Origin: Cellulomonas sp. RIT-PI-Y
Lineage (GTDB): Bacteria > Actinomycetota > Actinomycetes > Actinomycetales > Cellulomonadaceae
Assembly (NCBI RefSeq): GCF_025642745.1
Contig: NZ_JANZKP010000004.1
Span: 1 to 64,000 of the forward strand
DNA: 64,000 nucleotides
Reading direction: 5' to 3'
Shown: positions 53,399 through 56,266 of the stretch, in pieces
Layout: every line of letters begins with the position of its first letter
How positions within the stretch are numbered: the first letter of the stretch is position 1
Notes under the pieces: model-generated
Told to the model about the DNA's origin: nothing
The model's database searches: none
The model's input: the letters and a program-made list of their open reading frames with translations, nothing else
Translations under genes and position numbers: made by a program

Positions 53399-53761
53399 GT
53401 GGAGCTGCGCGCAGCACAGACCGAGGTCGAGGCGATCTCCCGCGCCTACGCGCGGATCCACGGCATCGATCGGACCGACGACTGGCTGCTGCTCAAACTC
53501 GGCGAGGAGATCGGCGAGCTGACCCAGGCCTACCTCGCGCAGACCGGACGGTCCCGGCGCTCGGCCACGGAGGCCGACGTGACGGACGAGCTCGCCGACG
53601 TCCTGGCGCACGTGCTGCTGATCGCCGAGCGGCGCGGGGTCGACCTGTCGAGCGCGCTGGAGTCGAAGTGGGGCCAGTGGCGGCACCTGGTGATCGAGCA
53701 GGACCGCTCCGGTCCCGCGCGGTCGCCGGGCGTGGGGACCGCGGAGGGGGACCGGTCATGA
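53399..53761 (+). CDS. MazG-like nucleotide pyrophosphohydrolase
   Basis: The 120-residue all-alpha protein has the EExxE-type metal-binding motif [12 protein letters not shown] and a downstream [18 protein letters not shown] helix with ExxD. These identify a MazG/RS21-C6-type pyrophosphatase that hydrolyses (d)NTPs. It starts seven bases after glmS with GTG and overlaps acpS by four bases (ATGA), so it is in the middle of an operon. The C-terminal 20 residues are low-complexity. The physiological nucleotide is unknown. Confidence 0.78.
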
Positions 53762-54111
53762 TCGTCGGTGTCGGCATCGACGTGGTGGACGTCGCGCGCT
53801 TCATCGCGACCGTGGAGCGGGTCCCCGCGCTGCGCACCCGCCTGTTCACCCCCGAGGAGCGGGACCTGCCCGACGCGTCGCTCGCGGCCCGGTTCGCCGC
53901 GAAGGAGGCGATCGCGAAGGCCCTCGGCGCACCCGCCGGCATGCGCTGGCAGGACGCGACCGTCCGTCGCGTGGTCGGTCAGCAGCCCGTGGTCGAGGTC
54001 ACCGGCACCGTCCGCGCCCGCGCCGACGAGCTCGGCGTCGCCCGCTTCCACCTCTCCCTGTCCCACGACGCGGGCATCGCCAGCGCGATGTGCGTCGCCG
54101 AACGCGACTGA
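53758..54111 (+). CDS. acpS: Holo-[acyl-carrier-protein] synthase
   Basis: AcpS transfers phosphopantetheine from CoA to acyl carrier protein. The 117-residue protein has the two motifs of the family, [10 protein letters not shown] and [16 protein letters not shown] 53758 overlaps the MazG-like stop. In related genomes acpS is often followed directly by nnr; here about 2.2 kb of inserted genes intervene. Confidence 0.93.
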
Positions 54112-54130: not shown

Positions 54131-54191
54131 GTCGAGAGTGCACGAAGGCAGGACTCCGGGCTCACGAGGTCTGCATGCGTGCACTCTCGAC
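54131..54191. repeat. Palindromic element, copy A
   Basis: The arms 54131-54151 and 54171-54191 form an inverted repeat that is perfect over the outer 14 bp (GTCGAGAGTGCACG) and imperfect inside, with a 19-nt loop. The left arm matches copy B (55185-55205) at 20 of 21 positions. The DUF559 gene ends inside it: its last codons lie in the right arm and its stop is in the loop. Confidence 0.8.
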
Positions 54192-55074
54192 CAACGCGTG
54201 GCGCAGTGCGGACAGGGCGGACTCGGGGTGCCGCAGGTCTTCGGCCGTCCAGGTGATCGTGCGCCAGCCGAGCGCGTCGAGTGCACGTCGACGAGCGATG
54301 TCGCGCTGCCAGGTCGCACGATCGACGCGATGGATGTCCCCGTCGTACTCGACGGCGATCCGCGCTGACGGGTAGGACAGGTCGGCGCGGGCGACGATCC
54401 GTGCGCCGCGGTCCAGGACGGGCCGGTTGACCGCTGGGCTCGGCAGACCCGCGGAGAGCAGCAGCAGCCGGAGGCGGGTCTCCATGCAGGAGTCCGTCCC
54501 GGCGCGCAGTTGGCCGATCGCCGCGCGCAACCTCGCGGCGCCGCGGGCACCCCGGGGAAGGGCCTCCACCACGGCACGCAACCGATCCGGTGTGCACAGG
54601 GGGAACCGCCGCCGCACCAGGGCGTCCCCCGCCACGACGAGCTCGGCGACCTCCAGCTGAGCGGCGAGCTGAGTCCAGACCGTCTCGACCGTCGGCACCG
54701 GGAGCCGGTAGCGGCGGACGACCTCGATCGGAGCGCACGTGCGGTGACCGACCGCCCCCCGGGCGTCGCGGCGGTGCGTGCGGCTCCGAGACCAGGACGT
54801 GCAGCGCATCCGGTCGGTCGAGGCCCCGGGGCGGGTCGGCGTCCCACAGCCGCCATGCCGTGGCGTGACTGAACACGGCGTCCGCGGGCAGGACCGTCCG
54901 GAGTTCCTCGCAGCGTCCGACGAGGTCGGAGGCCGGCCGAGGCGAGCGCATGCCGTGCCAGGGTGCGGGAACGTCGGCCAGCCGTGAGCGTGACACCCCC
55001 TGCTCGCGAGCGCCCCGAGCGGTGAAGGGCCTTCCGGCGAGCTCCGGCGGCAGCGGGCGAGCGCGTGAGGACAT
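54162..55074 (-). pseudogene. DUF559 endonuclease-like gene with a frameshift
   Basis: Two frames together encode one protein of about 303 residues. The N-terminal part (55074 to about 54760) starts MSSRARPLPPELAGRPFTAR, with a helix-turn-helix-like region and VFSHATAWRLW. The C-terminal part carries VVAGDALVRRRFP and the Vsr-like nuclease core ADLSYPSARIAVEYDGDIHR. The switch falls at a run of six C on the plus strand (54755-54760). Deleting one base joins the frames as PPRRPGAVGHRT. DUF559 proteins have a restriction-endonuclease-like (PD-(D/E)xK) fold related to Vsr. Two copies of a palindrome frame the gene. It may be a true pseudogene, a sequencing error or, less likely, programmed frameshifting. 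Confidence 0.75.
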
Positions 55075-55185
55075 CACCGCGGCGTGCAGGCCGCGCCCCC
55101 TCGACCGCACCCCCACACCCAGCGACCTGTGCACGACGCCCCGGATCCATCCCCTGTGGACAACCAGAACCCGCCCACCGCCGGG

Positions 55186-55244
55186 CCGAGAGTGCACGAA
55201 GGCAGGGTTCAGGAGCCCTCAGGCCTGCCTTCGTGCACTCTCGG
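55186..55244. repeat. Palindromic element, copy B
   Basis: A perfect 21-bp inverted repeat (CCGAGAGTGCACGAAGGCAG plus G at 55186-55206, and its complement at 55224-55244) surrounds a 17-nt loop. It lies 112 bases upstream of the DUF559 start codon. Together with copy A it brackets the gene. The remaining 55075-55279 interval shows no ORF. Confidence 0.88.
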
Positions 55245-55279
55245 CGGCGGGCGCCGCGCGCAGGGAGGGACGTGCTGGG

Positions 55280-56266
55280 TCAGCGGAGGGCGGGGGCCAC
55301 TTCGCGCTCGAAGAGCTCGATGCTGCTGCGGTCGTAGGCGGCGTCGATGAAGTAGCAGATCGCGTAGGTCATGCCGAGAGCGCGCAGCTCGGTGAGCTTC
55401 TCGACGATCTGCTCGGGGGTGCCGACCAGCGGGCCGTTGCGGAAGTCCTCCGCGATCCCGGGGGCCTTCTCCGGGAGCGTGTGTGCGTAGTGCTCCTCGA
55501 TCCAGGCGATCTTGTCGTCCACCTCGGACTCGGTGGCGGCGATCACCACGTTGTAGTTGGCGGACCGGGTGATCTCGTCGTAGTCGCGGCCGATCGCGGC
55601 GCAGTGCTGCTGCAGGACCGCCGACTTGTGGGCGAAACCGTCGGGGCTGCCGTCGAAGTTGGTGAACCGGGCGTGCTGGGCGGCGATGCGGAGGGTCTTC
55701 TTCTCGCCGCCGCCGGCGATCCAGAGCGGGGGACCGTCGGTCTGGATCGGCAGCGGGGCCAGCTGCGCACCGTCGACCTGGTAGTGCGTGCCGTGCAGGG
55801 TGGCGACGCCGTCGGTCCACATCTGCTTCATGATCTGCACGCCCTCGTCGAGCGCGGCGATCCGCTCGCCCGCGGTCGGGAAGCCGTAGCCGTAGGCGCG
55901 CCACTCGTGCTCGTACCAGCCCGCGCCGATGCCCATCTGCACGCGGCCGCCGCTGATCAGGTCGGCGGTGGCGGCGACCTTCGCGAGATAGGCGGGGTTC
56001 CGGTAGGACATGCAGGTGCACATCTGGCCGAGCTTCACCCGGCGCGTGGTGGCGGCGTAGGCGTTGATCAGGCTCCACGCCTCATGGGTGGCCTCGCCGT
56101 TGGGCTCGGGCACCGCGTGGAAGTGGTCGTAGACCCAGATCGAGTCCCAGGTGTCGCCGGAGTCGGCGTGCTGGGCGAGACCGTTCATGACGGACCAGTG
56201 CTCGGCCGGTGCGATGCCGGTGAGGTCCTGCCGCCAACCCTGGGGGATGAAGAGTCCGAAGCGCAT
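55280..56266 (-). CDS. LLM class F420-dependent oxidoreductase
   Basis: The 328-residue TIM-barrel protein belongs to the luciferase-like monooxygenase superfamily. It begins MRFGLFIPQGWRQDL and has IWVYDHFH, LGQMCTCMSYRNPAYLAK, the GRVQMGIGAGWYEHEW strand-loop and WIAGGGEKKTLRIAA. These fit the F420-dependent branch common in actinobacteria. Substrate is unknown. The ATG follows a TACCGT hexamer (56273-56278, minus) by six bases. It is divergent from nnr across 53 bp and lies next to the DUF559 element. Confidence 0.87.
   Translation of the reverse strand: MRFGLFIPQGWRQDLTGIAPAEHWSVMNGLAQHADSGDTWDSIWVYDHFHAVPEPNGEATHEAWSLINAYAATTRRVKLGQMCTCMSYRNPAYLAKVAATADLISGGRVQMGIGAGWYEHEWRAYGYGFPTAGERIAALDEGVQIMKQMWTDGVATLHGTHYQVDGAQLAPLPIQTDGPPLWIAGGGEKKTLRIAAQHARFTNFDGSPDGFAHKSAVLQQHCAAIGRDYDEITRSANYNVVIAATESEVDDKIAWIEEHYAHTLPEKAPGIAEDFRNGPLVGTPEQIVEKLTELRALGMTYAICYFIDAAYDRSSIELFEREVAPALR

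Follow-up and report, generated by a model that had tools for sequence, protein, structure and literature searches.

A Vsr-like nuclease gene bracketed by palindromes in Cellulomonas and a candidate REP-like repeat system of Actinomycetes

In a stretch of 64,000 nucleotides from Cellulomonas sp. RIT-PI-Y (contig NZ_JANZKP010000004.1, positions 1 to 64,000; hereafter the window), a gene related to Vsr endonucleases is placed between two copies of a long palindrome. Do the gene and the repeat belong together, and if so, what does the one do to the other? The initial annotation of the locus had compared it with REP palindromes and their RAYT transposases, with a Vsr-fold nuclease in place of the transposase, and had proposed a non-autonomous or nuclease-mobilised repeat system. 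The features of the locus are listed in Table 1; the genome of the window, a draft of 3.52 Mb in 94 contigs, is referred to as G000.

Table 1. Features of the palindrome-flanked nuclease locus, with positions in the window
Feature	Position	Strand	Remarks
Palindrome A	54133..54189		Imperfect, 57 nt; the 3' end of the nuclease gene runs into it
Palindrome B	55185..55245		61 nt, outer 22 bp perfect; on the 5' side of the nuclease gene
DUF559/MTES_1575-type (EDxHD, Vsr-like) nuclease gene, frameshifted	54162..55074	-	C-terminal ORF 54162-54809; N-terminal frame ~54757-55074
acpS (4'-phosphopantetheinyl transferase)	53758..54111	+	PF01648; left neighbour, convergent with the nuclease gene
Luciferase-like monooxygenase gene	55280..56266	-	Right neighbour of the nuclease locus

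The nuclease gene, its protein and its site in Cellulomonas

The arrangement first described, a Vsr-related DUF559 gene between two inverted repeats, was borne out, with the qualification that the gene is broken and its Pfam match weak. The left arms of the two palindromes (54131-54151 in A and 55185-55205 in B) are identical at 20 of 21 positions, as had been noticed, and the palindromes align over 57 nt with 79% identity. The perfect 21-bp stem ascribed to B was found with one extra pair. In A, the arms 54131-54156 and 54166-54191 have a complementarity of 85%, and the initial annotation was also right in placing the final codons and the stop of the gene (54162-54164, minus strand) within this palindrome. 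The same overlap recurs in Cellulomonas denverensis, in which a palindrome covers positions 1329-1383 of locus L059 and the gene ends at 1357. The exact pattern of the outer arms was present in six palindromes of G000 and the reversed pattern in none, and this result, together with the 57-nt alignment, ruled out a chance resemblance between A and B.

The nuclease gene of the window is broken by a frameshift: residues 2-108 of the family profile are read in frame 54757-55065 and residues 96-308 in the overlapping frame 54177-54800. The apparent frameshift may be an assembly error. The sole Pfam match of the gene is to PF18741 (MTES_1575), at 30.3 bits and under the cut-off of 38.2, and the name 'DUF559' fits this copy only weakly. 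At the same acpS locus of C. denverensis the nuclease gene is intact (303 aa, L059:1357-2268), with the palindrome on both sides. G000 has a second, intact nuclease gene without the palindrome of the window; a further MTES_1575 domain, above the cut-off, lies within an open frame of 1646 aa (G000:C1:73617-73898).

A profile built from 16 members of the family matched the entries 3r3p ('Mobile intron protein', E 8e-5), which we take to be I-Bth0305I, and 3hrl ('Endonuclease-Like Protein', E 3e-4), in both cases over the EYxGxxH...D region. PF18741 and PF04480 were each found in 13 of the 16 members (E<=0.01). Residues E198, E242, G245, H248 and D258 are invariant in all 16, and E198, E242, H248 and D258 appear to occupy the positions of the EDxHD active site. 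The AbiEi models of PADLOC matched seven of the 16, at about residues 10-200 where positions were seen, and Pfam found no AbiEi domain among the same members. An AlphaFold2 model of the protein was obtained with a pLDDT of 93.8 and a pTM of 0.88.

A search of 50,697 phage records with the C. denverensis protein gave no match at E<=1e-5, and a phage origin was rejected for this reason; the plasmid search revealed matches in three Arthrobacter records. The homing endonuclease I-Bth0305I is described as a dimer whose target is nearly 60 bp long (PMC3943268), a length that by analogy would suit the dyad of 55-57 nt found here. For another DUF559 protein, VsrA of Caulobacter, an SOS response caused in cells without cytosine methyltransferase is described (PMC12907096). 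In the open-licence PMC literature, preprints excluded, we found no report of a palindrome association with DUF559 genes and no role for DUF559 proteins in Actinomycetes.

The site itself was compared among congeners. In 18 of 29, acpS and the luciferase-like gene converge directly on each other across 3-165 bp, an empty site, compared with gaps of 1168 bp in G000 and 2479 bp in C. denverensis. Therefore, the bracketed gene is an accessory insertion at the acpS-luciferase site. Besides these 18 and G015, described below, ten congeners are left; in three of them, G002, G012 and G021, the gap is longer and no DUF559 gene was found there. Solo palindromes of other sequences, with no nuclease gene, were seen in the same spacer of G009 (L287:545-615) and G019 (L288:608-650).

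A nuclease unit is also present at this locus in the congener G015, but the palindrome on each side of its gene is a different one, AGTGTCCAGAAAC. The G015 nuclease is 57% identical to the C-terminal part of that of the window, 59% to the product of the second G000 gene and 55% to the C. denverensis protein. Two histories would account for this: the protein changed in place along with both palindromes, or the site was entered by a second unit.

Matched palindromes at DUF559 loci of Actinomycetes

DUF559-type proteins were detected in 56 of 59 Microbacterium genomes (149 matches, often several copies per genome). One universal palindrome for all DUF559 genes was rejected, as the GAGAGTGCA palindrome was absent at 29 of 30 Microbacterium loci. 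When the 25 uncut loci among these 30 were scanned de novo, about half of them revealed matching palindromes of their own on both sides of the gene.

Strict palindromes were defined as those of 42-70 nt, and flanks as the sequence within 350 nt of the gene, with one window per genome. Among 40 Microbacterium loci, mostly taken from the top of the list of 149 matches in 59 genomes sorted by match strength, and with two short windows of 9.1 and 7.5 kb, 27 had a strict palindrome 5' of the gene and 26 had one 3' of it; 19 loci had both and six had neither. Some of the palindromes counted resemble plain GC-rich sequence and are unmatched on the other side. The loci collected for the exploratory scan, before the strict thresholds were set, include 23 of these 40; the 17 fresh loci were therefore also counted on their own, and nine of them carried strict palindromes on both sides. 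Among genes of similar size in the same windows, called with a simple gene caller and used as controls, strict palindromes on both sides were found for 1 of 87 (Fisher p 1e-10). Palindrome density in Microbacterium was 2.18 per kb near DUF559 genes versus 0.15 per kb beyond 1.5 kb. A word of at least 12 nt common to the left and right flanks was found at 32 of the 40 loci and at 14 of the 17 fresh ones. Such a word was rarer in the comparison sets: swapped pairs had it in 22 of 200 cases, flanks taken 3 kb away in 4 of 39 and the control genes in 15 of 87. These controls rule out chance resemblance for the association as a whole. Enrichment beside DUF559 genes is strong, at 19 of 40 loci against one of the 87 control genes, and different genes have different palindromes. 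At L161 (G063), an exact word of 66 nt is common to both flanks and takes in most of the palindrome with some of the sequence outside it, which suggests a recent copy or conversion event.

The same assay was extended to the class and the phylum. DUF559-type genes were present in 67 of 89 genomes of Actinomycetes, and the best matches of 30 of these genomes provided 26 uncut loci. Matched flanks were found at 19 of the 26, compared with 5 of 26 in far sequence and 13 of 130 in swapped pairs; strict palindromes were on both sides at 10, and palindrome density was 1.81 per kb near versus 0.07 per kb far from the genes. Outside this class, 12 of 64 genomes of the phylum had such genes, and the 16 uncut loci used from a sample of 21 gave 0.45 versus 0.08 palindromes per kb. 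Five of these 16 had a common word of 12 nt or more, and at one (L295) the palindromes of the two flanks clearly match. The association of palindromes with DUF559 genes is thus a feature of members of Actinomycetes, and weak elsewhere.

Within a genome, different loci carry palindromes of different sequence. In G060, seven DUF559 loci were examined and one carries a palindrome of the family that we name after its GTGTCC motif; each of five other loci scanned has at least one palindrome of other sequence, matching on both sides in two. Likewise, the GTGTCC palindrome is found at one of three loci in each of G062, G069 and G097. Arm similarity tracks protein identity across 34 loci (Mantel r 0.46; 0 of 2000 permutations), and on a tree of 55 proteins the nine GTGTCC-flanked members require 2 changes, compared with 8.5 when shuffled (0 of 500), with near-copies contributing to this clustering. 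Many of the genes go with a palindrome family of their own, and the two have diverged together.

The units themselves were followed by their position. For Microbacterium protein pairs with more than 50% identity, 25 of 36 pairs lie in the same chromosomal place, as judged by common flanking sequence at E<=1e-20. Therefore, the gene is largely inherited vertically and itself seldom moves.

Copy number, placement and decay of the palindromes

The number of GTGTCC arms was counted in the 59 Microbacterium genomes with the pattern GTGTCCANNACACGC, allowing one mismatch. There were 28-143 arms in 11 genomes and 0-9 in the other 48, with at most nine for the reversed control. A GTGTCC-flanked DUF559 gene was found in 10 of the 11 high-copy genomes, on both sides in nine of them and on one flank at L246, where the other side is cut by the contig end; for six of these 10 genomes a single DUF559 locus was checked. 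By comparison, 31 of the other 48 genomes were examined at one DUF559 locus each, and none of these windows had such a gene. The exception is the draft G058: it has 28 GTGTCC arms, and at the three DUF559 loci examined there none serves as a flank. A second family, AGAACGCACGANAGCACC, gave 19 and 12 arms in the two genomes with the cognate gene and at most four in each of the other 57. The initial annotation had called for a test of the association between repeat copies and DUF559 genes, and for these two families copy number does track the cognate gene, G058 excepted.

These counts bear on the idea that a homing-endonuclease unit invaded one palindrome of a pre-existing host repeat family. 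The catalytic part of the protein does resemble 3r3p, annotated as a mobile intron protein, and the dimer of I-Bth0305I on its target of nearly 60 bp, reported in PMC3943268, would fit such a unit. However, both palindrome families fall near background where no cognate gene was seen, G058 excepted, related units stay put (25 of 36 pairs) and the phage records hold no match to the protein at the threshold used. We therefore consider such an invasion distinctly unlikely.

The palindrome family of the window was followed in the same way. In G000, both arms were found at no more than two mismatches in 11 places, A and B among them, and at G000:C85:6577-6622 the contig ends within a copy, as expected for repeats in a draft assembly. 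With one mismatch allowed, the arm was absent from all 38 relatives searched, 24 of them in the same genus. A GTDB genome scan with the exact two-arm pattern revealed 39 stretches in four species: C. denverensis, with 41 exact-arm palindromes, Microbacterium allomyrinae, with six, Plantibacter sp., with one, and Microbacterium sp. Root166, with two. Nearly all of these palindromes are precisely 55 nt long. The arm therefore occurs elsewhere in G000 and in four other species.

A DUF559-like gene adjoins the palindrome in three of the four, namely C. denverensis, M. allomyrinae, where palindromes flank the gene on both sides, and Plantibacter; none was found in the palindrome stretch of Root166. 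The Plantibacter protein (L071:316-1259) combines a DUF4379 zinc-finger part with an end that is weakly DUF559-like and is encoded just before a single GAGAGTGCACGAAA palindrome; its likeness to the nuclease is weak (33% over 104 residues, E 4e-5).

Solo copies of C. denverensis were compared with the syntenic sites of G000. Copies were missing from G000 at five sites, four of them aligned and the fifth the site of a four-copy array, and two further copy sites are apparently common to both genomes. Thus, copies differ between species, just as the whole unit is missing at the acpS locus in most congeners, and presence varies at both levels. The intergenic flanks of the two genomes are too diverged for exact insertion ends or target duplications to be obtained from this comparison, and no direct sign of transposition was seen. 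In C. denverensis, four and three palindromes stand within a few hundred bases at L084:4094-4706 and L086:1884-2318, a layout like that of BIMEs or REP clusters. At the G000 counterpart of the array (L222:9700-10100) that palindrome is absent and another, CCGAGTTCGGTAC...GTACCGAACTCGG, is found.

The placement of the C. denverensis copies was determined with a simple gene caller, and array copies were counted several times. On this basis, the 28 classifiable solo copies are distributed as 22 between convergent, six between tandem and none between divergent genes, compared with 30 convergent, 89 tandem and 17 divergent among all neighbour gene pairs. Five of 40 copies lie inside a called ORF, and seven have no called gene on one side. 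The first 17 stem positions are paired in 84-100% of 43 distinct copies. Outside the stem, the four nucleotides at one end are CGCC in 37 of the 40 copies and variable at the other end, and the base at +4 is G at 75 of the 80 ends; both features may mark a target site or the element end.

Most classifiable solo copies being between convergent genes, the palindromes could act as transcription terminators or as hairpins for mRNA stability, placed by chance at gene ends. Gene-specific families that match on both sides, co-diverge with the protein and follow the gene in copy number would be unexpected for such hairpins, one of which moreover lies upstream of the nuclease gene. As a full account this is very improbable, and a terminator effect could be a side role of the palindromes.

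The same placement is also relevant to our main rival explanation, a role in regulation or chromosome organisation, in which the palindromes are operators or organising sites and the AbiEi-like part binds them, autoregulating its gene from both flanks and acting at the copies around the genome, while nothing moves. The AbiEi matches over the N-terminal and middle part in seven of the 16 members would agree with this role, as would the dyad symmetry of the 55-nt sites and their presence at both ends of the gene. Nevertheless, intergenic spaces with 22 convergent, six tandem and no divergent pairs are a poor placement for operators, the putative active site of the nuclease is conserved, and species-specific sets of 28-143 arms require a means of spread. 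Weighing both sides, we hold an operator or organising role to be unlikely, though a serious candidate.

The state of the copies was compared between a genome with an intact gene and one with a broken gene. In C. denverensis (intact) 77 of 117 arms are exact and in G000 (broken) 10 of 34 (Fisher p 3e-4), for one genome pair with non-independent copies and with exact arms counted by eye. In M. allomyrinae, whose gene is intact, 29 arms were found at no more than two mismatches, none of them exact among the matches listed; because its own arm differs, this species cannot be judged by that pattern.

Comparison with REPtrons and the proposed mechanism

In REPtrons, palindromes flank the gene of an enzyme, are dispersed between genes and co-evolve with that enzyme (PMC3733652, PMC3116915, PMC8266576). 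The loci described here share with these systems (RAYT/TnpA-REP plus REP/REPIN) palindromes that both flank an enzyme gene and are scattered through intergenic sequence, an enzyme specific for its repeat in genomes with several families, the co-evolution of both and the location of copies between convergent genes. Many dispersed intergenic copies, another REPtron feature, were found as well: 41 in C. denverensis and 28-143 arms in 11 Microbacterium genomes; the second family, with its 12 and 19 arms, is small. On the other hand, an EDxHD/Vsr-type nuclease that also has an AbiEi-like part stands in place of an HUH Y1 transposase, and the palindromes are longer, at about 42-66 nt, and have outer arms of roughly 18 bp and upwards.

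The architecture, being that of REPtrons (PMC3733652), would also be expected if the palindromes were REP elements moved by a RAYT, a Y1 transposase, with the DUF559 gene as a passenger. Nevertheless, PF01797, the Y1/RAYT transposase, was absent from all 10 genomes searched, including G000, C. denverensis and M. allomyrinae, in a search whose control was positive in 5 of 14 known genomes (E. coli and four others). For the same reason, a RAYT acting in trans was rejected. Moreover, no GTAG tag was found at the stem foot in 40 copies of C. denverensis, in which the tags are CGCC, CACC, CCTC, CATC, CGTC and a few others. Movement by a RAYT is hence extremely improbable.

CGTC-tagged REPs, described as having stems of 8-9 bp and loops of 4-5 nt, mostly in alphaproteobacteria, and for which PMC3733652 reports no dedicated enzyme, are another relevant comparison. 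Neither these REPs nor the present palindromes come with their own tyrosine transposase, whereas the stems described here are about twice as long and have a candidate enzyme; CGTC is present on one arm in 6 of the 40 C. denverensis copies. The protein resembles the EDxHD homing endonuclease I-Bth0305I and Vsr/DUF559 nucleases in its catalytic region, by profile matches to 3r3p and 3hrl, but unlike I-Bth0305I it was seen with no intron and no phage relative, and it has its own repeated palindrome family. It resembles AbiEi antitoxins in seven of 16 members, from which it differs by its C-terminal nuclease and, in the window, by having acpS and a luciferase-like gene as neighbours.

As the REPtron pattern is present and a Y1 transposase is not, the equivalent task is most simply assigned to the DUF559 nuclease. 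In our judgement the locus is probably a REPtron-like unit in which an EDxHD (Vsr-like) nuclease replaces the RAYT as the dedicated enzyme. The comparison with REPs and RAYTs made in the initial annotation was apt, and its repeat-system reading gains support from the association, specificity, co-divergence and copy-number correlation described above; mobilisation driven by the nuclease is the part that we infer. The system works like a REPtron, yet lies outside the REPtron family, and in the two families counted across genomes further copies are abundant almost only in genomes with the matching enzyme gene, which looks like a new kind of repeat-linked enzyme.

According to the mechanism proposed, the unit would be a largely vertically inherited gene bracketed by a long palindrome for which its protein is specific. 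This protein would have two parts, an AbiEi-like N-terminal and middle part and a C-terminal nuclease of the EDxHD/Vsr type, and the palindrome would be a non-autonomous repeat, with further solo copies in intergenic positions. Acting probably as a dimer, on the dyad of about 55 nt or on a hairpin form, the nuclease would recognise its own palindrome family and nick or cut its members. Repair of the break, or replication, would then copy the palindrome into new intergenic sites and keep the copies alike. After the death of the nuclease the copies would no longer be renewed and would decay, as may have happened in G000. Binding, cutting and copying by the nuclease, and the direction of cause, from enzyme to repeat, are what this mechanism would add to the correlations observed. 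Whether the units amount to an independently evolved class of REP-type mobile repeats, widespread in Actinomycetes, in which an EDxHD nuclease with an AbiEi-like part spreads and homogenises its own palindromes of about 55 nt, a hydrolytic nuclease thus taking on the task attributed to the tyrosine transposase of RAYTs, is a proposition that we regard as evenly poised.

For the family, many of the common DUF559 proteins of Actinomycetes are tied to a palindrome family of their own, which supplies candidates for both their substrate and their function. Should the nuclease indeed be what spreads the palindrome, REP-like repeats would have arisen at least twice, with unrelated enzymes. If true, this would also bear on the open point, as raised in PMC3733652, that CGTC REPs have no dedicated transposase. 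The pairs of protein and palindrome are ready material for measuring the co-evolution of nuclease specificity and target.
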